Virus record (IMG/VR): IMGVR_UViG_3300043773_001254
Span: 1 to 46,577 of that record
Direction: 5' to 3' (one strand)
Source of the DNA: a virus
DNA: 46,577 bases
The notes beneath the pieces are model-generated. The model was not told where the DNA came from, did not search any database, and saw only the letters and a program-made list of their open reading frames with translations. The translations under genes were made by a program, and so were the position numbers. Below are positions 2,905-41,600 of this stretch, piece after piece; within the stretch, counting starts at the first letter, position 1; each line of letters starts with the position of its first letter.

Positions 2905-4287
2905 ATGTTCTCCGAGCAGCGTGAGCAGTTGCGGCAAGCGCTCGCGGCGGCTGGCCTGCCTCCCGATGCCGCCACGCGGATCGCCAACATTCTTGGCAAT
3001 AGCGCACAGACTATACGCCACACTGGCGAAGTGCAGTTCGACAACACGCCGGCCGACCTGCGGATGGTTGGGCCGCAGCAGCGGAAGTTGCGGTTCCCAC
3101 ACCTTGACTTTCGTGAGGGCGACCCGGACCACCGCCCTAAACGCACAGCCGCCTCCGAGAACAAGAAGGAAAAGGAGCCAGAGCCGAACGTCGTGCAGGT
3201 CTATGCCCCGCAGCAGTACGACGCCAATTTCCGAGTCGCCAACGGCGTGCTGACTGAGGTGACGGGCGACGGCCAGTCGGCTGCGGTCAACGTCCGCAAC
3301 GTCGTGGCCGCCCGCCCGCCCGGTGGCCTGCCGCTCGCCATGCTGGACAGCCAGGCCAACCAGTTCGTCGGCAAGGCACCCAGAGCGCAGGTGGCGGCCA
3401 ACGACGGCACGGCCCGCCTGGACATCCAGGAGACTGGGCAGGAGATGCTCTGGAACCTCCAGATGCTCAACCGGGCCGACTACGACGTTGTGACCAAGAT
3501 CGAGTTCATTCCCGGCAAGGGTCTGGAGATCACATACGACCGGATCAAGGCGTGGAACCAGAACAACGAGCGGGTGGAGACGATCCCGACCGTCGATCAG
3601 CCGGTCGTCAGCGAGATCGTGGATGACAAGCATGGGCTGCGGGGGCGACGCAGGACTGTCACTGTGCTGGCGTCTGCCGGGCAGGCCAACACGTTTTTCA
3701 ATGTGTACCGTGTCGGGAAGTTCACTGGCGGCTGGGCGGCAGGTGCCACCAAGACCATCACGCAGGTCTGGCCCACATCGCCATCCACTGCATCCGTCAT
3801 CAACCTGACACAGGACGTGGCGGACACGCCGTCCGAGAAGTATGTCCTGTACGCCATCCGCACGCGGGACGCAGTGCCCACTGCCGACACGGCCAACGAC
3901 GATCCGATCACCACGCAGACGAACGCTCCGCAGTTCTCCGTCTCTGGCAGCATCGTGGAGGTGGCCGGCGACCCGGTGGCGGAGTACTACGCCATCGAGA
4001 TTCAGCCTGCCTCCGAGTGTACGGCCTTCTCGTCGCTCAACGGCAAGTTGGTGTCGGCCCTGACGGGATTCAATTCGACCGTGCCGTCTGCGCTGTCGTA
4101 CATCACCGACAGCGAGGGTGAGGATAACTGCCTTGTGTGGCGATCCCAACTGCTGACGGTCGTGACTGACGTGGCGCTGACCGAGTTCGGACTGGAGGTC
4201 AGCAAGGCGAACGTCTATGTGCTGGCTGCGGAAGCGGCGGACCCGAGCCTCATCCCCATCACCGACTGCCCGACAGAGCCGGCGTAG
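2905..4287 (+). CDS. Probable virion structural protein, unknown
   Basis: 460 aa, starting 3 nt after the preceding stop with a GGGGTGAGG ribosome binding site just before ATG. The N-terminal part is polar with a helical start (residues 1-35) and a Lys/Glu-rich linker near 85-95. The rest alternates short beta-like and polar segments, with no membrane segment or catalytic motif. The segment around residues 110-220 is rich in Asn, Val and Gln, as in tail adaptor or fibre-attachment proteins. I do not recognise the family; position between the nozzle-like gene and the Cys-rich gene makes a tail-associated role likely. Confidence 0.6.
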   Translation: MFSEQREQLRQALAAAGLPPDAATRIANILGNSAQTIRHTGEVQFDNTPADLRMVGPQQRKLRFPHLDFREGDPDHRPKRTAASENKKEKEPEPNVVQVYAPQQYDANFRVANGVLTEVTGDGQSAAVNVRNVVAARPPGGLPLAMLDSQANQFVGKAPRAQVAANDGTARLDIQETGQEMLWNLQMLNRADYDVVTKIEFIPGKGLEITYDRIKAWNQNNERVETIPTVDQPVVSEIVDDKHGLRGRRRTVTVLASAGQANTFFNVYRVGKFTGGWAAGATKTITQVWPTSPSTASVINLTQDVADTPSEKYVLYAIRTRDAVPTADTANDDPITTQTNAPQFSVSGSIVEVAGDPVAEYYAIEIQPASECTAFSSLNGKLVSALTGFNSTVPSALSYITDSEGEDNCLVWRSQLLTVVTDVALTEFGLEVSKANVYVLAAEAADPSLIPITDCPTEPA

Positions 4288-28452: not shown

Positions 28453-30066
28453 ATGCCCATGTCGCCTCGCCTGCTTCGGCCAAGAAACAACCTGTTCGAC
28501 CCCCGATCCATTTCGGGCGCTGTGGCGTGGTGGAAGTTCGACGAGGCGGCGACAAACACCAACGTCGCGGCAGTCGATTCCATAGGCGGACTCTCTGTCT
28601 CTGCTTTTGGCGGGCCGATGAGTGCTTCGGGCCGAACCGGCAGAGCCCGCAGATTGACGGTGGGCGTTTCTGGTGGCGTGCCTGCGGCGGGTTTGTCCGC
28701 AAATCTAATCGGCGGCGCGGGGGCGATTGTCGGTGTGGATCAGTCGTTCACTGTCTGCATGTGGGTGAAGCCAGAGTACGCGCTACAGCCAAGTGCGTCC
28801 GCAAGTTTCGCGCTTTCTGGTTTCACGGGAGTTGTCAATTCAAACCCAAGCAATCAGTGGCGGCTCGGTTTGGGAACAGCAGCCACAAACTGGAACGCAC
28901 AACTCAACGCGCGCATCTATTACACGGATGGCTCATTCACATCACTCCTCGTCCCTGGAGCGTGCCTCACTTCCTTGCCGGATGGAGTGTGGGCGCACAC
29001 AGCGGTCGTCGCAAACAAGGAATCTGGAACTGCCACGTTTTATATCAACGGCGTGAGTGCTGCTAGTGCCTCGCTTGCAAGCGGTAAGGTAATCGACGGA
29101 ATCGACGCCACGAAACAAATGACAATTCTATTCCCTGGACTCGTAGACGATTTGGTTGTCTACAACAGGGCTCTGTCGCAGTCGGAAGTATTGAGGTTCG
29201 TGCAAGCCCCGCAGAGGTCTGCCCAAGTGACGGCCATTCATATCGAGGCCGAGCGGTGGGCGGGTCGAGTGATTGCAAACGGTGGAACCGTGTCGCTCGC
29301 CACCGTCCAGGCTGTGTCTGATTTTTGCACGGCAGTGGATAGCAATAACCTCCGGTCGCTGCTGTGGCGGGTGAACCCAATGGCTGGTGGCAATCTTTCG
29401 GCCGCCCTCGTCCCGCTATACCTGTCCACAAGTCTCACTGGGGCGACTCAAGGGACAGTTACAGACGCAAACCCAAGCATCAGCCCATTCGTCGCTGGCG
29501 ACTACTCGGAAGCCAGCGGCCTTCTGGGAGACGGCAGCAGCAAGCGGCTGCTGACCGGGCTGCCACTCAATTTCAACACCAGCCGACACCTTGCCTGTTT
29601 TGTCCACACGCTTCCTACGTCGACGTTTCGCGCCTACATCGCGGCAACGGGATCAGTCAACCAGGACGGCCTCTTGTCGCTTCAGTGCGACAGCCCGACT
29701 ACCGTTTTCCGGATGGAGAACCTTCGCACAACCGCAGACGGCGGCGCGTCTGGTGGCGGAACTTCAGGAACGCACGCGGCCGGTGACTTCATTATGGGAA
29801 CCAGCCAGGGCAACAACGCCGGAGGCGGGTCTGTCCTGTACGCCAACGGTGTGAGTACCGGAAACAGTGGGACCGGCAACGCGCCAGGTTTGGTCAGCAC
29901 GGGATTTGCGCTGTACGCCTACCATCGCTCCGACGGCACATTCTCCGCGTACTCCAACGCCCGCATCGGCGGCTATAGCATCGGTGCCCACATGAATCCA
30001 ACGCAAGCCCTCGTCTACGCAAACGCCTGGAACACCATGCTTCGTGCGCTTGGGAGGAAGGTATGA
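28453..30066 (+). CDS. LamG-domain receptor-binding / tail fibre protein
   Basis: 537 aa, GAGGA 9 nt before ATG. Residues 20-255 show a concanavalin/LamG jelly roll: AVAWWKFDEA at the start, SFTVCMWVKP, WAHTAVVANKESGTATFYINGVSAASA and the LVDDLVVYNRALSQSEVLRF strand that closes the domain. The C-terminal 265 residues form a different beta-rich domain with AVSDFCTAVDSNNLRSLLWRVN, FVAGDYSEASGLLGDGSSK and a terminal YANAWNTMLRALGR. I recall this C-terminal pattern from phage tail proteins. A/T in codon third positions is visibly higher than in neighbours, which suggests exchange with other phages. Likely binds host surface sugar. Confidence 0.7.
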   Translation: MPMSPRLLRPRNNLFDPRSISGAVAWWKFDEAATNTNVAAVDSIGGLSVSAFGGPMSASGRTGRARRLTVGVSGGVPAAGLSANLIGGAGAIVGVDQSFTVCMWVKPEYALQPSASASFALSGFTGVVNSNPSNQWRLGLGTAATNWNAQLNARIYYTDGSFTSLLVPGACLTSLPDGVWAHTAVVANKESGTATFYINGVSAASASLASGKVIDGIDATKQMTILFPGLVDDLVVYNRALSQSEVLRFVQAPQRSAQVTAIHIEAERWAGRVIANGGTVSLATVQAVSDFCTAVDSNNLRSLLWRVNPMAGGNLSAALVPLYLSTSLTGATQGTVTDANPSISPFVAGDYSEASGLLGDGSSKRLLTGLPLNFNTSRHLACFVHTLPTSTFRAYIAATGSVNQDGLLSLQCDSPTTVFRMENLRTTADGGASGGGTSGTHAAGDFIMGTSQGNNAGGGSVLYANGVSTGNSGTGNAPGLVSTGFALYAYHRSDGTFSAYSNARIGGYSIGAHMNPTQALVYANAWNTMLRALGRKV

Positions 30067-30425: not shown

Positions 30426-30944
30426 CTGACACCGGACCAGCAGCGGCTTGCCGAGCAGGCGATTGAGATTGTGCCGAAGGCAATCGTGGCCTTTCGGTGC
30501 CGCTACCCCACGCTCCGCAAGCAGGTGGCGGCCATCGACGCAACCAGCGTGGCGTATCTTGCGATTTGCAAGGCGGCAGTGACGTATGACCCGGCGAAGT
30601 CAAAGGTCACGACGTACTTCTCGATGGCGATACGCAACGCCCTGCTCAAGGAGATCGACCGCAACCGCCGCCATCGGTACGACTCGCCGGATCGGGTGCC
30701 GATGGAACTGGCGGAGGCACTGGCGGTCAGCAAGCAGCACGGGTTCTCGACCCGACTCCAGACGGCCATCGCCCGCCTCCCCGCCAAGTCCCGCAAACTG
30801 ATCCACCTCCGGTTCTTTCGTGGGCTCAGTCTGCGGGAGATTGGCGAGCAGGCGGGGTGCGACCCACGAACTATCCAGCGGAGACTCGCCGTCGCTTTGG
30901 GCTATCTGGAAACGCTTTTGCAAAGCGAGCCGCTTGTGCCTTGA
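30420..30944 (+). CDS. Sigma-70-family RNA polymerase sigma factor
   Basis: 174 aa from ATG 30420; the frame is open to 30393 but only with a TTG. Region 2-like segment near residues 40-85 (SVAYLAICKAAVTYDPAKSKVTTYFSMAIRNALLKEI) and region 4 with helix-turn-helix near 115-160 (LPAKSRKLIHLRFFRGLSLREIGEQAGCDPRTIQRRL). The linker is short, as in group IV or phage sigma factors. No Shine-Dalgarno precedes the ATG. The 3' end overlaps the convergent serine recombinase by 74 nt. It probably redirects host polymerase to phage late promoters. Confidence 0.8.
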   Translation: MHLTPDQQRLAEQAIEIVPKAIVAFRCRYPTLRKQVAAIDATSVAYLAICKAAVTYDPAKSKVTTYFSMAIRNALLKEIDRNRRHRYDSPDRVPMELAEALAVSKQHGFSTRLQTAIARLPAKSRKLIHLRFFRGLSLREIGEQAGCDPRTIQRRLAVALGYLETLLQSEPLVP

Positions 30945-31611
30945 GGGCACGGGTGATGGAGTTGATGTTCCACTTGTAGCCGTTCGGCCGGCGGACGTTG
31001 TAGAAGGCCAGCGTGATCCGCTCCAGGCTGGCCCCTCCCTTCCGCATGGCGGCCATCGCCTCGACCTGCTTCCGCTCCGCCTCGTCGGGCAGGTAGTAGG
31101 AATCCTTGCCGGTCCCGCACTTCCGCCAGCCGACTGGGGCGTGACGGCCATGCGGCTTGCCGGCCTTCCGCTTTTCCCGCAGGCTGTCCCGCGTCCGCTG
31201 CCGGATGAACTCCACCTCCAGTTCTGCGAACGCCGTCAGGATCGTGAACACGCACCGGCCGATGGGACTGCCGGTGTCGAGGCCCAAGTCCAGCGAGTTG
31301 AACGACACGCCCTTGTGCGACAGGAGTTGCATCGTCTGGGCAGCGTCGATGACGGAGCGGAAGGCCCGGTCCAGTTTCGCCCACACGATCTTGTCGCCGG
31401 GCTGGACGAGAGCCCACACCTTGCGGCCCTCGTCCCGCTCAAACATCGGCTTCGTGCCGCTGGTGGCCGAGTCGTAGAGCCAGCCGCCGTAGGTGTAGCC
31501 CTCCGGCACGAGCGCCCGCTTGATGTACTCCTCGCACACGGATCGCTGGGCGTCTTCCGTGATTGTCTGCCGGCCGGTGGAAGCCCGGCCATACGCATAG
31601 ACGACAGGCAT
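30871..31611 (-). CDS. Serine recombinase (resolvase/invertase type)
   Basis: 246 aa from ATG 31611, with TAGGAG 8 nt upstream. Catalytic Ser11 lies in YGRASTGRQT. Further signature: AKLDRAFRSVIDAAQ, GLDTGSPIGRCVFTILTAFAELEVEFIRQRTRDSL and KRKAGKPHGRHAPVGW, then a C-terminal DNA-binding part with GASLERITLAFYNVRRPNGY. It is shorter than large serine integrases and resembles resolvase/invertase size. The gene ends inside the sigma gene. Since the phage also has a tyrosine recombinase, this enzyme may invert or resolve a segment; no target sites were seen. Confidence 0.85.
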   Translation of the reverse strand: MPVVYAYGRASTGRQTITEDAQRSVCEEYIKRALVPEGYTYGGWLYDSATSGTKPMFERDEGRKVWALVQPGDKIVWAKLDRAFRSVIDAAQTMQLLSHKGVSFNSLDLGLDTGSPIGRCVFTILTAFAELEVEFIRQRTRDSLREKRKAGKPHGRHAPVGWRKCGTGKDSYYLPDEAERKQVEAMAAMRKGGASLERITLAFYNVRRPNGYKWNINSITRALKAQAARFAKAFPDSPKRRRVSAG

Positions 31612-31622
31612 TGGTGTGTCTC

Positions 31623-31835
31623 CTAGATCAAGTAGAAGAAGACGAAGAACACGGTGCAGACCCAGCCGAACACGCCCATGTAGATGGGCTCCGTCGGGTC
31701 GAGGCTGGTGCGAACCATGAGGGCCAGGATCGCCAGCCGGAAGGCCCACTCGATAGGCCCGGCGTCGAGGCCGAGCATGACGCGGAACCGTTGGCGGATG
31801 GTGCTGTGACTGTACTTGTAGTCGAGCCAAGACAT
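31623..31835 (-). CDS. Small two-span membrane protein
   Basis: 70 aa from ATG 31835, AGGAG 7 nt upstream within the CACACAGGAG leader shared with two other minus genes. Two hydrophobic spans, EWAFRLAILALMV (about residues 28-41) and YMGVFGWVCTVFFVFFYLI (52-70), predict a membrane protein. It lies between the serine recombinase and an unknown gene. Function unknown. Confidence 0.55.
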   Translation of the reverse strand: MSWLDYKYSHSTIRQRFRVMLGLDAGPIEWAFRLAILALMVRTSLDPTEPIYMGVFGWVCTVFFVFFYLI

Positions 31836-31853
31836 GATCGTTCTCCTGTGTGA

Positions 31854-32687
31854 TTAGCCCGGACCAGGGATGTAGATGTCCCCGAGAACCCACTCCACGA
31901 TCCCGTTGATGGCGTCCTTGCTGCATTTCCAGCGGTACTTGGGCCGCCATTCCGTGCAATTTTTCTCTAGTCCCAAGAACTCCAGGTGCTTGAAGGCGTA
32001 GTCCCCGTCGATGTGGTGGAAACAGCGCGACTCGTCGCCGTGCTGGCGAGGCACGATGGTCAGTTTCCTGCCGTCGCTTCGCTGAGTCGGGGGCGTGTAG
32101 ACCACGATGTCCACGTCGTCCCCTTCTCCACGCACCATGCAGCCCGGCAGGTCGGCCGTCGCCTTTGCGAGGCGGCCGGCAAACAACTTCGCACGGCGAG
32201 ACAGGTGCGGGTGCAGCGTCCCCCAGTTGTGGTCGTACCTCTCGTGCCGTCGAGGTGGGTGGAGCCAGACGCCCGGACGACTGACGCACGGCGTAGCCAC
32301 TCCGTCCCTGACCAGATACCACGACCAGACGTTGCTCGGCAGCAGCCGCTTCTCCTGGTGTGGCGTGAACACGGGGACGTACCGTTTCCATGCGGCGACC
32401 TGCTGCCTCCGCATGTCCCGGTCTACGGAACGTGGCGGCCCAGTCACGGCGTACACGGTCGCCCCGTCCGCCCCCCTGTAGGCACGGGCCAGAGCGATCC
32501 ACCACTTCGATGTGCTGTAGGTAATCTCCAGGCATGGCGGGTCGCCGCTGGGTCGTGCCCCGACGACCACGCCACCGTACAGGACGGTCGAGCGTTTGCC
32601 GGCGTGGAACAAACGCATGAGCGACTCCAACTTTTCGTAGGTGTAGAGGCGTGGTGCCAGTTTCTTCCGTCGCTTCGCCATGCTCAT
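31854..32687 (-). CDS. Hypothetical basic protein in the MoxR-VWA operon
   Basis: 277 aa from ATG 32687 (AGGAGG just upstream, ATGA overlap with the VWA gene); ATG 32681 is possible. Basic N-terminus MAKRRKK, then LESLMRLFHAGKRSTVLYGGVVV, and a middle rich in Arg/Trp and His (KWWIALARAYRG, RPGVWLHPPRRHERYDHNWG). The C-terminal part has alternating beta segments (DVDIVVYTPPTQ, KLTIVPRQHG) and CTEWRPKYRWKCSKD. No family recognised. Tight coupling to the VWA gene suggests a related role. Confidence 0.5.
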   Translation of the reverse strand: MSMAKRRKKLAPRLYTYEKLESLMRLFHAGKRSTVLYGGVVVGARPSGDPPCLEITYSTSKWWIALARAYRGADGATVYAVTGPPRSVDRDMRRQQVAAWKRYVPVFTPHQEKRLLPSNVWSWYLVRDGVATPCVSRPGVWLHPPRRHERYDHNWGTLHPHLSRRAKLFAGRLAKATADLPGCMVRGEGDDVDIVVYTPPTQRSDGRKLTIVPRQHGDESRCFHHIDGDYAFKHLEFLGLEKNCTEWRPKYRWKCSKDAINGIVEWVLGDIYIPGPG

Positions 32688-34180
32688 GCCCCCTCCTGTG
32701 GCAGCGGCACGACGCGAGCCCAGTGGGGGATGGCGTTGTGCCACGAAGATCCCTTCTCGCCTGTGTACGCCACGACGACACGGGCACGGGGCTTCTTGCC
32801 GTGCCAGTTCGTCTCGGCGTCGGTGATGAGGACGATGGAATCGGGCTTGTCCGTCCGCTCCACCTGCTCGATGGCGGTGGACATGTCCGTTCCGCCGCCC
32901 CCGTGCCAGTCGAACACCCGTGTCGTGGCGACCAGTGCGTGCGACTGCACCTTCGTGTCGGCACAGTACACCTTGACTCGCCCCAGTTTCCGCAACCCTT
33001 GAGCGATGACGGAGAGTGCCTTCGCCTGGATGTCCTTCGTCATCATGGACGCGGACGTATCCACGATGACGACGGCGTGCGGCTGCACGGTGATACGGCC
33101 GTGCAGGAGGGGGGCGTCATCGCCCGGTGGCTGCTTGCGTGACCGGCGGCGGTGGGAGTAGTCCCGCCCGCCAACCGGCGAGGCCACGCTGGTGCAGACT
33201 GCCGACCGCAACTGAGCGAACGGGTCGGGCGTGGGCCGCAACTTCTGCTTGAGTGCCTGCTTGATGGAGCCGGGCACCTTGCCGGGATTGCTGGCCTCGT
33301 ACTTGGCTATGGCTTCTTCCGCTTGGGCTGCGGCCATGTCTTCGCCGTAGGCCTGCCACGACCCGTCGTCCTCGATTTCGTAGGGGCGAGGGCACCCGTC
33401 CGCACACGAGCCGCCTGTGCCGGGCGAGCCGGCCGGTGGCGGTGCCTTGCCCTTCCCAGACGAAGGCGATCCCGCTCCGTTGCCAGACGGACTCTTGCCG
33501 CCCTCCGCCTCAGCATCGTCGTCGTCAGCATCTCCGTCATCGCCCTGACGTGAATCGCCACCGTCGCTGCCTGTGCCGCCGTTGTCGTCATCCCCGTCAC
33601 CGTCGGAACTGTCGCTGCCGGATGCGGACGAATCTCCCTGCTCGCCACCGTCTCCAGAAGACCCATCGGAATCAGACTCCCCATCTCCGTCTCCTTGCTG
33701 CTGGTTGTTGCTGCCGTTCTTCAACTTCTCCATGATGAGGCGGTAGTACTCCTGCATCGACCTGTTCTCAGGGAAGTCGAGCGTGATGCCCCAGTCCGGG
33801 ACTTCGCATCCCAGATAGACCGCCCCCTCCGGCCGCAGGTGCCGCATCATCGAGAGCGTCTGCTCGATGACCAGATCGGCGGCCACGTTGCAGACGAACC
33901 GCTCCAGGTCGGACGGGTTCTCCCCGATGATCTCGGGTGCCCGGCCGTGATGGTCGAAGATCAGATGCAGTACCTCGTGGGCGACGAGGTACGCCGTCTG
34001 ATCCCGGCCGATCTTGGACACGAACTCGGCATCCCAGTACAGGTTGCCGGCTGCGTCCACTGCCGCCGTGCCGATGCCCGGAGTCTCCTGCTCACGCAGG
34101 GAGTAGATGTATGAGGCGAGGTACGGGACGTATTCAAAGGTGTGTACCCGTGCCTGCCCCAGTAGTTGTCTCGGGGTCAT
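32684..34180 (-). CDS. Metallopeptidase-VWA protein (DUF2201-like)
   Basis: 498 aa. N-terminal putative metallopeptidase domain with HEVLH at residues 68-72 in AYLVAHEVLHLIFDH. A long acidic, Ser/Asp/Gly-rich linker (about 165-265) is probably disordered. The C-terminal von Willebrand A domain begins at VVIVDTSASMM, giving MIDAS DxSxS at 374-378, then GGGTDMS and LITDAE. This is the combination found in DUF2201-type proteins encoded with MoxR ATPases in bacteria. The MoxR gene lies upstream in the same operon. Such pairs use ATP to remodel protein assemblies; the phage target is unknown. Confidence 0.85.
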   Translation of the reverse strand: MTPRQLLGQARVHTFEYVPYLASYIYSLREQETPGIGTAAVDAAGNLYWDAEFVSKIGRDQTAYLVAHEVLHLIFDHHGRAPEIIGENPSDLERFVCNVAADLVIEQTLSMMRHLRPEGAVYLGCEVPDWGITLDFPENRSMQEYYRLIMEKLKNGSNNQQQGDGDGESDSDGSSGDGGEQGDSSASGSDSSDGDGDDDNGGTGSDGGDSRQGDDGDADDDDAEAEGGKSPSGNGAGSPSSGKGKAPPPAGSPGTGGSCADGCPRPYEIEDDGSWQAYGEDMAAAQAEEAIAKYEASNPGKVPGSIKQALKQKLRPTPDPFAQLRSAVCTSVASPVGGRDYSHRRRSRKQPPGDDAPLLHGRITVQPHAVVIVDTSASMMTKDIQAKALSVIAQGLRKLGRVKVYCADTKVQSHALVATTRVFDWHGGGGTDMSTAIEQVERTDKPDSIVLITDAETNWHGKKPRARVVVAYTGEKGSSWHNAIPHWARVVPLPQEGA

Positions 34181-34801: not shown

Positions 34802-35905
34802 TCACGACTGAACCAACGCCATCAACTTGGCAAGCACGTCCTTCGGGGGCGACCAGCCATCCGGGCGGACGCCGCCCTTGCTGACGGGATTCCAGAACGA
34901 ACGGAACTGCATGAGGAACGACTCGATCTCCTGCTCCCCGACGGTGATGAAAGCCTCCGCCGCACGGGTCCACCGCTCCTTGCTGGTGTTGTCACGCAAC
35001 GCCTTCACCAGCCCGGTGAGGAAGCAGATGTTGGCGTCGGGCCGCTTCTCATACTTGTAGTCCTCAGCACCGGACAGGTACGCCTCCGGGTTGAGGAGGT
35101 CGAGCCGGTGCCAGTACCGGAGGAACTCGCCGCCCACCTCCGCACCGACGCAGCCGACGGCGAGCGGCCGGTAGATGGGGTCTTTCTGTTCGTACCCGCA
35201 TGCACCAGCCGCAGCGAAGCACTTGACCAGGAACGTCCAGGTCCGCAGGTTAGGGAACGCCATCGTCTCGTCGTCCTGCGGCAACTTCTCCCGTGCGTCG
35301 GGAGCCGAGCGGAGGAACGCCTCGACCAGCGAGCCGAACTGCGGGAGGAAGTCGGTCCAGTGGGCCGGCACGATGGGGAACTCGGGTGCCTTCCACTCGC
35401 AGCCAGCACGCAAGCCGGTGAACCAGTGTTCGTAGTCCACCTCCCATGGGAAGTGGACGAACCGGGCACGCATGGCAGGTGCAAGGGGCACCGCATTGGG
35501 GCACAGTTCCGGCGGGTTGCAGGCACCGACGATGATGGTCGATGCCGGCATGACGTACTCGCCAACCCGTCGCTCGGACAGGACGGAGAGCAGGCCACCC
35601 TGCGTGGCGGACGGCACGTTCGTCACCTCGTCCACGAGGACGAGAGCCTTGCCGTCTTTGGTCTTGTCCCACAGCGAGGTCGGCATCATGCGGACGACGC
35701 CGGCCTTGTTGTCGGGGATGGGATAGCCCGAGAAATCTTCGGGCAGGTGGGTCGCACCGAGTAGCGGAACGAACGTCCGCTCCAGTGCATTTGCCAACGC
35801 CTCCCACGTCGAGGACTTGCCGACGCCAGTGCCGCCCGTGACCAGCACGGGGGCGACCTGACAGGCGAGGAACGCAGGGGTGTTGCCGAGTGTTGCGCGA
35901 GCCAT
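34802..35905 (-). CDS. MoxR-type AAA+ ATPase
   Basis: 367 aa from ATG 35905, with CGGAG about 10 nt before; upstream in-frame codons at 35965 would read through the repeat-bearing gap and are rejected. Walker A GGTGVGKSS (24-32), Walker B LVLVDE (88-93), sensor-1 IIVGACNPPE (about 123-132) and arginine finger MRARF (about 144-148). The C-terminal half is a helical lid. MoxR ATPases work with VWA-domain proteins as chaperone-like remodelling machines; the partner gene lies two genes downstream. A hairpin and the repeated 14-mer lie just upstream. Confidence 0.85.
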   Translation of the reverse strand: MARATLGNTPAFLACQVAPVLVTGGTGVGKSSTWEALANALERTFVPLLGATHLPEDFSGYPIPDNKAGVVRMMPTSLWDKTKDGKALVLVDEVTNVPSATQGGLLSVLSERRVGEYVMPASTIIVGACNPPELCPNAVPLAPAMRARFVHFPWEVDYEHWFTGLRAGCEWKAPEFPIVPAHWTDFLPQFGSLVEAFLRSAPDAREKLPQDDETMAFPNLRTWTFLVKCFAAAGACGYEQKDPIYRPLAVGCVGAEVGGEFLRYWHRLDLLNPEAYLSGAEDYKYEKRPDANICFLTGLVKALRDNTSKERWTRAAEAFITVGEQEIESFLMQFRSFWNPVSKGGVRPDGWSPPKDVLAKLMALVQS

Positions 35906-35940
35906 GAGAGTGAGACTCCGAAGTGGGGAACCAATGGGAC

Positions 35941-35976
35941 GGGGGACGGGGCAGCACGATGCCACCCCGTTCCCCC
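35941..35976 (-). other. Hairpin before MoxR gene
   Basis: GGGGGACGGGG (35941-35951) pairs with CCCCGT-CCCCC (35965-35976) with one bulged T. Placed between 14-mer copy 1 and the MoxR start. Confidence 0.5.
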
Positions 35977-35983
35977 ACGAACC

Positions 35984-36015
35984 GGACTCCGCAGCGGGAA
36001 AACTGCGGGGAAAAC
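35984..36015 (-). repeat. 14-mer repeat copy 1, long form
   Basis: GGACTCCGCAGCGG (35984-35997) extended by GAAAACTGCGGGGAAAAC; ends 1 nt from the stop of the HTH gene at 36017. Confidence 0.85.
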
Positions 36016-38800: not shown

Positions 38801-39301
38801 TCAGTCGGCGTCGTCCTCTCCGATGAACTCGATTCTGATGCGGAAGCACAGGCCGGCAGCGTCACGCCGGATCGTGGCTGCATATCCACCGTCCCCGAAC
38901 CCGGAGCAACTCACGGCCCCGAACGGCAGGACGCCGGCGCCCGGCTTGTTGAGGGTGAGGCGGCAGCACTTGTCGTAGAAAGACGACTCGTCGGGGTCGT
39001 CGGGGTAGCGAGCGTCGTCGAACACGCCCGCCTGCCCGCTGTCCACGCCCACTTGAAAGTCCGCCGGGATGGCGACGCCCATGCCCCTGAGTGCGTGCGT
39101 CACCGTGAGGCGGCTGATGCGGTTGCCCCATGCGCCGCAGTTCTTTCGCTCGATCTGTGCAATCCACTCGCCCTTCCGGCAGTTGGCGACAGTGCCGCAG
39201 CACCATGTCCCCTTGCCGTAGCACGGGTCGGTGACGCGAAGCACGCCCGACTCGCACTTGAAGGTGCCGATGCTGGTGCTGTCATTGGTTGCGACTGACA
39301 T
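38801..39301 (-). CDS. DUF4241-like hypothetical phage protein
   Basis: 166 aa from ATG 39301, GAGGAG upstream. FKCESGVLRVTDPCYGKGTWCCG at the start and VGVDSGQAGVFDDARYPDD and VSCSGFGDGGYAAT later give the SG.L.VTDPCY ... VDSGQAG..D ... SGFGDGGY layout I associate with a family of phage and bacterial proteins of unknown function. Ten or so Cys, some in CC pairs. Sits between the amidotransferase gene and the long 14-mer copy at 38763. Confidence 0.6.
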   Translation of the reverse strand: MSVATNDSTSIGTFKCESGVLRVTDPCYGKGTWCCGTVANCRKGEWIAQIERKNCGAWGNRISRLTVTHALRGMGVAIPADFQVGVDSGQAGVFDDARYPDDPDESSFYDKCCRLTLNKPGAGVLPFGAVSCSGFGDGGYAATIRRDAAGLCFRIRIEFIGEDDAD

Positions 39302-39320
39302 CGAATAGTCTCCTCGTGTG

Positions 39321-39361
39321 GAAAGAAAGCGGGGCCAGTGACCCAGTGCCACTGGCCCCGC
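39321..39361 (-). terminator. Terminator-like hairpin after the amidotransferase gene
   Basis: A perfect 12-bp stem GCGGGGCCAGTG (39329-39340) / CACTGGCCCCGC (39350-39361) with a 9-nt loop, followed on the minus strand by TTTCTTTC (39328-39321). It lies 24 nt from the amidotransferase stop and precedes the DUF4241-like gene. Confidence 0.65.
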
Positions 39362-39367
39362 AGGAAC

Positions 39368-39381
39368 GGACTCCGCAGCGG
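39368..39381 (-). repeat. 14-mer repeat copy 3
   Basis: Exact 14-mer, 4 nt after the amidotransferase stop in the direction of transcription; the 12-bp hairpin follows. Confidence 0.85.
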
Positions 39382-39385
39382 TGAA

Positions 39386-40237
39386 TTACCGGGCGTCGTG
39401 CAGTGCCTCGATGCCGTAGTGCCCGAGAATCTCACGCACTTCATCCAGGCAAGAGCGGGTGAACCCGTACTCCAGGAGTTCCTCCATCCGCATCTCGGTG
39501 TAGAACTCCTCCGCCCGCTCCGCATCGTCGTCATCCATGCTGTCGTATGCCTGGCGGGCCAGCGTGGCGGAGGCGGAGGTGTCCTCCTCGACGTACTTCC
39601 ACTTGCCGTCGGAAGTCTCGACCCACTCCCGCTCCTTCTTGGGGGCGGGCTGCGTCTTGGCGGGAGTCGAGTACCCGATGGCGGAGCGGTAGTAGTACCC
39701 GGTGTGCGAGTCGTTGCTGTACCAGTGGCCGTCGTCCTCCCAGTCCCCGTCGCCCTCGTTCCAGATGCAGAAGTCGCCGTCCGCACGGAGGAACACGAAC
39801 TTGCTGCCCTTGTGGGCGAGTTGCTGCGTGTACACGACCTCGTTGCGGCGGTAGAAGTCTGCGTCCCGTGCGTACAGCGGCTTGAGAACCAACTCGTTGA
39901 AGTGCCAGGTGTCGCTGCGATCCTTGTCTACCTCGCACTCGATTGAGATGACGCCGTTGTGGATCATGGCGAGCGACTCGGACACGAGGAACGGGTGGCA
40001 GTTGCCCGTGTCCTTCTTGCCGTGCGTTGCCCATCGGAAGTGGATGATGGACTGGCACTCCGAGTACGGCTCAAACGCCTCACGGAACTCCTCGAAATTG
40101 CCGATGCCGCAGCGGGTGACGAGCGTGCCGTTGACGACGACGGCGAACCCCCACGAATCGTCGTTGACTGCGAACCCGTTGCGGTAGGCATCCCAATCGG
40201 GGCGGGTGGTGGCGGGCTTGTAGATGGCGAGGCACAT
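39386..40237 (-). CDS. Class II glutamine amidotransferase
   Basis: 283 aa, ATG 40237. After Met removal Cys2 would be the N-terminal nucleophile. Further motifs: FRWATHG (67-73), NCHPF (79-83) and MIHNGVI (91-97), the GATase II core order. The domain hydrolyses glutamine and channels ammonia to a partner. The C-terminal half (Tyr/Asp/Ser-rich, from residue 150) differs from known biosynthetic enzymes. It lies 39 nt downstream of the amidoligase gene, the pairing described for amidoligase systems, so it likely supplies ammonia for that reaction. Confidence 0.85.
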   Translation of the reverse strand: MCLAIYKPATTRPDWDAYRNGFAVNDDSWGFAVVVNGTLVTRCGIGNFEEFREAFEPYSECQSIIHFRWATHGKKDTGNCHPFLVSESLAMIHNGVISIECEVDKDRSDTWHFNELVLKPLYARDADFYRRNEVVYTQQLAHKGSKFVFLRADGDFCIWNEGDGDWEDDGHWYSNDSHTGYYYRSAIGYSTPAKTQPAPKKEREWVETSDGKWKYVEEDTSASATLARQAYDSMDDDDAERAEEFYTEMRMEELLEYGFTRSCLDEVREILGHYGIEALHDAR

Positions 40238-40276
40238 GCGTGGATCTCCTTGCGGGTGATGGATGAAGGGAAGGAA

Positions 40277-41518
40277 TCAGGCACCGACGATGCGAGACGT
40301 GTGAACCAGTGCGAACAACGGGCTCCGCTCCTTCGGGTTGGCAACGCTCTCGGGCAGGCCCGAGTTGTTGCGGTAGCCGACGCGAAGGGCCGTGTGAGAC
40401 AGGAGGAACTCGTGCAGGTGGCGGTACGTCCGCCGATTGGTGGCAACGAACCGGCGGAAGTTCATGAAGTGCAGCGGGTCGGTGCCGGCATCGACCAAGC
40501 CGAACCCGTGTGCCGCCTGCTCGCAGAACTTCACGGCAGCGATGGCGAACTCGTGGTTCTTGAGGATCGCCCGGCTGTACAGGTTGCTCTTGAACAGGCG
40601 GAACTCCACCGTGTCGTTGGTGATGTTCAGCACTTCGTACCTGTCGCTGTTCTCCTGGTCCGTGATCCGCTTGGTGCGGAACTTGTTGAACCCGGCGGGC
40701 CGGCAGGCGATGGCCTCCAAGAACGCCCGGTTTGGCTCGGCGTTCATGAACACCAGCAACTTGCCCAGAGTGAGCGGGCCAATGGCCGCACGACTCAGGT
40801 GGATGTGATGCCCAACGTCCTCGCCCTTGTCCCACGCGGAGCAACGCCCGTTGCCCAGCGTCTTGAACGCCCCGAAGATGCCGTACACCTGCTCGGTCGT
40901 GAGCGGCACCGTCACCAACTCAAACCCGCCGCTGCCGTACTCATCGAGCGAGCCGTCGCGTTTGGCGATGGCACACTTGCGGGTGCGGGTTAGCGGGTTG
41001 AGGTTGGCGTACAGGTCGTCAACCTGCTTGATCGTGTACTCCACGTCATCGAAGTCCTCGTCGTCCGAGTACATCTCGATCTCGTGCCCGGCGTACATGT
41101 ACGAACCGGGCAGGTCGGGATCGGGGTTCCAGCCGTGACGGCGATGGGCACGGGTGCCGTAGTCGTCCAGTTGGTCATCGAAATTGGAGGCGCGACACTC
41201 GCACGAGTCGTCGTAGCACTCGCCGTTCGCACAGCGGGAGTTGCCGAAGGAGTCCTGGCCGTACTGGTCGTACCCGTCGGAGTCGTAGCCTTCCCGGTCG
41301 TACCCGTCCTCGTTGTATCCCGCGACGCTGTACCCCTCGCTGTCGATGCGCTCGCCGTCTCGGGTGAGGCGAGTTGTGGGATGGAACTCCGTCTCGGTGA
41401 CGGAGTGGATGCCGTCACTGTCGAACCCGTTGGGGTCGAGGACCGTGCCGGTTTCACGGTGCATGCCCACGCTGTCGAACCCGTACTCGTCGTACTCGAT
41501 CTCGATGCCGTCGCTCAT
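40277..41518 (-). CDS. Amidoligase (ATP-dependent COOH-NH2 ligase)
   Basis: 413 aa from ATG 41518, GGAGGAG upstream. Core motifs: GHEIEM (144-149), GGFELVTVP (197-205), GHHIHLS (236-242) and the YEVLNITNDTVEFRLFK strand (294-310), as in phage Amidoligase_2 proteins of the glutamine-synthetase-like fold. These join a carboxyl group to an amine using ATP. The N-terminal 95 residues carry acidic (Y/F)(D/N)xxG pentads. The amidotransferase gene follows in the same operon. A Rho-independent-type hairpin sits immediately upstream, suggesting conditional expression. Substrate unknown. Confidence 0.85.
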   Translation of the reverse strand: MSDGIEIEYDEYGFDSVGMHRETGTVLDPNGFDSDGIHSVTETEFHPTTRLTRDGERIDSEGYSVAGYNEDGYDREGYDSDGYDQYGQDSFGNSRCANGECYDDSCECRASNFDDQLDDYGTRAHRRHGWNPDPDLPGSYMYAGHEIEMYSDDEDFDDVEYTIKQVDDLYANLNPLTRTRKCAIAKRDGSLDEYGSGGFELVTVPLTTEQVYGIFGAFKTLGNGRCSAWDKGEDVGHHIHLSRAAIGPLTLGKLLVFMNAEPNRAFLEAIACRPAGFNKFRTKRITDQENSDRYEVLNITNDTVEFRLFKSNLYSRAILKNHEFAIAAVKFCEQAAHGFGLVDAGTDPLHFMNFRRFVATNRRTYRHLHEFLLSHTALRVGYRNNSGLPESVANPKERSPLFALVHTSRIVGA

Positions 41519-41540
41519 GTCACTCCTCCGTTGAAGTGGG

Positions 41541-41575
41541 GAAAAGAAAAGGGCCGCCCCACAACGGGACGGCCC
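41541..41575 (-). terminator. Terminator-like hairpin before the amidoligase gene
   Basis: Minus-strand stem from 41575 to 41551: GGGCCGUCCC, loop GUUGU, GGGGCGGCCC, ten pairs including one U-G pair, followed by TTTTCTTTTC at 41550-41541. The next start codon is 23 nt further, leaving no room for a separate promoter, so this acts as an attenuator if transcription comes from upstream. Confidence 0.65.
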
Positions 41576-41586
41576 AGCCGAAACAC

Positions 41587-41600
41587 GGACTCCGCAGCGG
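41587..41600 (-). repeat. 14-mer repeat copy 4
   Basis: Exact 14-mer, 34 nt after the stop at 41635; terminator-like hairpin 41541-41575 follows. Confidence 0.85.

Follow-up and report, generated by a model that had tools for sequence, protein, structure and literature searches.

A predicted phage amidoligase-amidotransferase pair with an N-terminal repeat domain as a reduced form of the phiEco32/LUZ24-type cassette

The phages phiEco32, LUZ24, RIO-1 and PSA-HP1 carry a larger gene set that has been termed a 'peptidoglycan modification cassette' (PMC5498523), and the LUZ24-like phages have been described (PMC3890496). In the early region of the podoviruses phiEco32 and LUZ24, an Amidoligase_2-type ligase has a class II glutamine amidotransferase (GATase) as its neighbor, and both phages add a COOH-NH2 ligase (PF14395), an ATP-grasp ligase and a gamma-glutamyl cyclotransferase. 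That the envelope is the target was conjectured earlier (Iyer 2009, cited by PMC5498523, PMC10580990 and PMC11318856). The pair has also been annotated in the OM43 phages MEP401 and MEP402, where it was discussed as being of unknown function (PMC10580990). In the literature searched, no phage member with demonstrated catalysis and no tested substrate was found. Among cellular enzymes, MurT is a relative of the Mur ligases and GatD is a class I-type GATase. Both MurT-GatD (PMC3267633) and AsnB-type peptidoglycan amidation are two-part systems for glutamine-dependent amidation of a carboxylate, a likeness to the phage pair that is a functional analogy only, with no homology claimed.

Here, we analyzed in full an IMG/VR virus record (the window, 46,577 bases long) and compared its ligase-GATase pair with these systems. 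The record may be a fragment (sibling records reach 81 kb, and few structural genes were recognized), and no near DNA relatives were found among named phages. The window pair is a reduced, minimal form of the known phiEco32/LUZ24-type phage cassette; its distinguishing features are the N-terminal DxxG[YF] repeats of the ligase and a conserved four-cysteine knot, the pair itself being already known from many phages. The best overall explanation, to which we assign a probability of about 0.75, is that the locus encodes a glutamine-dependent amidoligase with a docking domain, for which a peptide carboxylate of the envelope would be the likeliest class of target.

Gene unit and predicted active sites

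The two genes lie on the minus strand, the amidoligase first, with 39 nt between its stop codon and the start of the GATase gene (Table 1). Because a Shine-Dalgarno sequence precedes both starts (GGAGG at 41525-41529 for the amidoligase, AAGGAG at 40246-40251 for the GATase) and terminator-like hairpins stand at both ends, the genes look like a two-gene unit of their own. Comparison of the window genes with their relatives gave dN/dS values of 0.29-0.45 for the amidoligase and 0.31-0.37 for the GATase; both are therefore real protein-coding genes under purifying selection. In sibling phages, the pair is always kept, whereas the directly adjoining genes differ. The gene directly downstream of the pair in the window (38801-39313, minus strand) has a weak DUF4241 match and, unlike the pair, is unmatched in the sibling loci.

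Table 1. Positions in the window of the two-gene unit, its coding features and its boundaries
Feature	Position	Strand	Basis
Amidoligase (glutamine-synthetase-like ligase) gene	40277..41518	-	Intact ORF from ATG, 413 aa plus stop
N-terminal DxxG[YF] repeat domain, amidoligase residues 6-95, 9 units matched	41234..41503	-	Pattern count versus shuffles
Four-cysteine knot C96, C101, C106, C108	41195..41236	-	Nearly invariant in close group
Predicted glutamine-synthetase-fold catalytic core, residues 138-376: GxExE, KxDGS, GfE, GxHxH, R273, NxxxxTxExR	40391..41107	-	Conserved columns
Class II GATase (Ntn-hydrolase glutaminase) gene	39386..40237	-	Intact ORF, 283 aa plus stop, MCLAIYKP...
Codon of predicted GATase nucleophile Cys2 (N-terminal once Met is removed)	40232..40234	-	Invariant in 33 relatives
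Predicted GATase glutamine-binding/catalytic block: H66-R68, T71-G73, HNG 93-95, SDT 108-110	39908..40042	-	Invariant columns
Terminator-like hairpin, 5' of two-gene unit	41551..41575	-	Stem 11 + T tract
Terminator-like hairpin, directly 3' of GATase	39329..39361	-	Stem 14 + T tract
CCGCTGCGGAGTCCG copy, upstream boundary of two-gene unit	41586..41600	-	Pattern search
CCGCTGCGGAGTCCG copy, downstream boundary of two-gene unit	39367..39381	-	Pattern search

The GATase scored 24.8 bits (E 2.4e-5) against Pfam GATase_6, for which the curated cut-off is 27, a shortfall that is a matter of score threshold and not of a defining residue or fold. Its residues 27-98 are matched by the glmS model (E 1.4e-12), the profile of its family retrieves GlmS and PurF structures, and its AlphaFold2 (AF2) model (pLDDT 86.2) matches the glutaminase domain of GlmS (Foldseek E 5e-8) as well as EgtC and PurF, all pointing to an Ntn-hydrolase fold. 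Across 33 diverse relatives, no variation was found at C2, H66, R68, T71, G73, N94, G95 or D109; these positions match the known nucleophile and glutamine-binding residues of class II GATases, and the block listed in Table 1 matches R73, N98-G99 and D123 of GlmS. By sequence and model, the product is a class II GATase in which every catalytic residue is present and for which glutaminase activity is predicted.

Against Amidoligase_2 (PF12224; curated cut-off, 22), the window ligase scored 13.8 bits (E 0.055). Since 10 of 14 family members match PF12224 at E <=0.1 (best, 4e-7) and some relatives score above the curated cut-off, its sequence places it in Amidoligase_2 as a divergent member. With curated scores below threshold in the window alone, the identification of both proteins rests on the families of their relatives and on structure models. 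No solved structure was found to match the amidoligase by sequence. In its AF2 model (pLDDT 86.7), residues 135-413 align at Z 9.3-11.4 with glutamine synthetases, with plant glutamate-cysteine ligase and with YbdK, and each of the 50 PDB matches listed is one of these or the Salmonella relative of YbdK; in the Foldseek search, PafA (the Pup ligase) and Dop ranked as well. The window amidoligase thus has its fold in common with the glutamine synthetase/YbdK/glutamate-cysteine ligase/PafA superfamily but shows only 10-15% sequence identity to its members (VIA rows) and is paired with a separate GATase. The superfamily motifs GxExE, DGS, GxE, GxHxH and TxExR are invariant or nearly so in 38 diverse amidoligases (E146, E148, D188, G198, E200, G236, H238, H240 and R273 invariant; E305 and R307 nearly invariant), which we take to be what a glutamine synthetase site that binds metal and ATP would show. 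The product is accordingly annotated, from sequence and model, as an amidoligase with a glutamine synthetase fold and predicted catalysis. The subfamily looks largely viral: one scan of genome contigs found no close bacterial relatives and a second found a single bacterial locus, in a Bacteroidetes MAG, both scans depending on short degenerate patterns.

The first-pass annotation had read this locus as an amidoligase and an N-terminal Cys2 amidotransferase encoded 39 nt apart, with which the intact frames, folds, residues and bounding hairpins all agree. The structure predictions that it proposed gave a GlmS-like GATase and an ATP-binding glutamine synthetase fold for the amidoligase; of the defects that it named as fatal, none was encountered, as Cys2 is invariant, the ATP-binding fold is present in the model, and no frameshift was found in either frame.

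Pairing across viruses and relation to the larger cassettes

A GATase stands beside the amidoligase in 78 of the 80 viral loci listed from a ligase-profile search, and an amidoligase beside the GATase in 79 of the 80 listed from a GATase-profile search, samples that favor nearer relatives and in which some loci overlap on the same contig; all three unpaired loci are truncated at the end of a contig. Chance would produce far fewer such pairs. The amidoligase lies directly upstream of the GATase in all but two of 131 distinct pairs measured (L111 has the reversed order and L096 an inserted stretch), the gaps within the pair being mostly -10 to +60 nt, with overlapping stop and start codons in over half. 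About 32 GATase sequence clades (60% identity) among phages contain the module. In the partial genome of Microcoleus phage My-WqHQDG, the locus read contains a relative of the ligase and no GATase. That the pairing is known in phages and that its substrate is an open question, both statements of the first-pass annotation, is in accord with PMC5498523 and PMC10580990. One existing label is misplaced: gp108 of Mycobacterium phage LittleLaf (L020:4893-6254), entered as 'glutamine amidotransferase domain protein', is actually the amidoligase, and gp109 is the GATase.

A search near the pair found no hidden precursor of a peptide and no third partner that different lineages have in common. Clusters of neighboring genes were considered as a third partner and discarded, as they came down to synteny within one lineage, to shadow frames or to the ATP-grasp gene that other lineages carry.

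The profile of the window ligase family matches the amidoligases of phiEco32, LUZ24 and StenR_269 with a probability of 96.5% (E 8e-10), the cassette GATase has its active site in common with the window GATase, and the two genes lie side by side in the early region in both cases. An ATP-grasp protein of the LUZ24 gp21/phiEco32 gp80 family accompanies the pair in 37 of 135 distinct loci, which ties the window pair to what PMC5498523 terms a peptidoglycan modification cassette. Relatives of this protein, a family hardly recognized by Pfam, follow or lie near the pair at L116:6936-7688, L113:5640-6371 and in about 35 further relatives. A profile search for the ATP-grasp partner found none in the window, whose record may be a fragment, or in 11 sibling records; the profile finds phiEco32, LUZ24 and L116, which are all part of it and hence controls by construction. 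Neither the COOH-NH2 ligase PF14395 (present in the controls phiEco32 and LUZ24) nor the gamma-glutamyl cyclotransferase PF06094 (present in StenR_269) was found in the window or its siblings. Because these three partners were not found, we file the locus as a reduced variant rather than a full cassette, and the DxxG[YF] repeats on its ligase further distinguish it from that of phiEco32 and LUZ24.

The same two genes occur alone, directly adjacent and with the amidoligase first, in MEP401/MEP402, Marvin-type mycobacteriophages and Podoviridae sp. ctgrD200, in the records of which, as in the window, no ATP-grasp gene was found. Their ligases have 25-27% identity to the window ligase and differ from it in having Cys-rich N-termini instead of repeats. 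The pair can be viewed as the irreducible two-gene core of the larger phiEco32-type cassette, and pairs without ATP-grasp, such as those of Marvin-type phages in M. smegmatis mc2 155, are suited to its study; identification of the substrate would account for a widespread phage strategy.

The N-terminal domain and the candidate targets

The first 130 residues of the amidoligase contain nine matches to DxxG[YFIMHQ], all within residues 10-88, against a mean of 0.7 and a maximum of 5 in 10,000 shuffles. Most of residues 11-80 of the repeat domain have pLDDT above 90 (AF2), a value that may be inflated, as repeat sequences can mislead the confidence estimate. The four-cysteine knot that follows is probably a metal site, and distant relatives have a Cys-rich region at the equivalent place. 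Since the number of repeat units per close relative varies from about 2 to about 15 (with L015 and L104 down to about two or three), since the repeats are absent from most pair-bearing phages, many distant pairs having Cys-rich N-termini instead, and since the core (78-82% identity) is better conserved than the N-terminal third (68-71%), the N-terminal region appears to behave as a variable docking or scaffold module and not as a catalytic part.

The chemistry of the pair, judged from sequence and models, is very probably glutamine-dependent carboxamide synthesis, for which the following course can be proposed: (i) the two genes probably form a self-contained unit with early expression; (ii) the GATase, with Cys2 as nucleophile, would hydrolyze glutamine to release ammonia, which would pass to the ligase; (iii) the subunit with the glutamine synthetase fold would bind Mg-ATP and activate a substrate carboxylate as acyl phosphate, from which ammonia would displace phosphate to give the amide; (iv) the DxxG[YF] repeats and the cysteine knot would probably act as a docking or oligomerization domain, recruiting the enzyme to its target; and (v) a peptide carboxylate of the host envelope (peptidoglycan stem peptide or precursor) might thereby be altered after infection, for example to exclude other phages. 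The envelope, and peptidoglycan in particular, is the likeliest single class of target, a tentative choice at clearly less than even odds that derives mainly from kinship to the cassette. The peptidoglycan reading is weakened for the window phage because the gamma-glutamyl and ATP-grasp partners behind the conjecture are missing. On reading, no obvious membrane anchor was found in either protein.

A possible but doubtful alternative is that the pair amidates Asp or Glu side chains, or the C terminus, of a host or phage protein on which the Cys4/repeat region docks. The closeness of the ligase fold to PafA and Dop speaks for a protein target, as does the combination of a constant core with a variable N-terminus, which a targeting module would be expected to show; however, such repeats were found in no other ORF of the window, and no small neighboring peptide was found to be conserved across lineages. 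In a special case of this alternative, the acidic DxxG[YF] repeats would themselves be modified, and they are indeed Asp-rich. They cannot be the general substrate, however, because most pair-bearing phages are without them and L015 and L104 nearly so, and the suggestion of the first-pass annotation that the protein's own repeats are the substrate is thus unlikely as a general rule. It is also rather improbable that the repeat-bearing group forms a separate protein-modifying ligase that uses its repeat domain and Cys4 knot to dock on one particular host protein (a defense or transcription factor, perhaps) and amidates the Asp or Glu residues of that protein; if it did, the window ligase would be a Pup-ligase-like, glutamine-fed enzyme of takeover or counter-defense and not a cell wall enzyme.

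We regard it as unlikely that the pair amidates a small carboxylic acid to yield a modified nucleotide, DNA base or small metabolite. The pair does lie near replication genes in MEP401/402, LUZ24 and phiEco32, but any function in early host takeover would be compatible with such a location close to early genes; moreover, base-hypermodification genes were not seen beside the pair, and no third gene there is conserved across lineages. Quite improbable, in turn, is a general auxiliary set for nitrogen metabolism that feeds amino acid synthesis, as proposed for Phage-ZRK32, a planctomycete phage reported to have an amidoligase, a GATase, glutathione synthase and gamma-glutamyl cyclotransferase and to affect growth (available text of PMC10945688). 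The release of ammonia from glutamine is a poor route of nitrogen acquisition, the window ligase is strongly unlike metabolic glutamine synthetase, and the growth effect is not tied by mutation to these genes in that same text. A degenerate or inactive pair is scarcely credible: both proteins fall below curated Pfam thresholds, but purifying selection, invariant catalytic residues, intact frames and ribosome-binding sites all speak against it.

A repeated element and other features of the window

The element CCGCTGCGGAGTCCG occurs in 11 copies (<=1 mismatch) on the minus strand between positions 35985 and 44267 of the window and in none on the plus strand. The copies lie in the early region, at gene boundaries or close to them, some directly before a Shine-Dalgarno sequence and ATG (38776) and some before a hairpin, and two of them flank the two-gene unit (Table 1). 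The element was found in 10 of 11 sibling records, with 1-10 copies in each and on one strand per record, while the backwards control gave 0; matches in plasmids were at chance level only. It is perhaps a phage promoter or leader element.

Several further genes of the window merit description. For the protein encoded at 2905-4287, no phage match was found. A MoxR-like AAA ATPase lies beside a DUF2201 metallopeptidase/VWA protein (32684-34180 and 34802-35965), an arrangement conserved in the siblings, and the PHROG label of the DUF2201 protein, 'HNH endonuclease' (phrog_1314), conflicts with Pfam. A 697-aa ORF (30871-32964, minus strand) contains a serine recombinase/resolvase domain at residues 455-603; either its true start probably lies further in, or it has a long N-terminal extension. 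Lastly, the plus-strand gene at 28453-30066 encodes a protein with a concanavalin A-like (Laminin_G_3) domain, possibly a virion surface or carbohydrate-binding protein.
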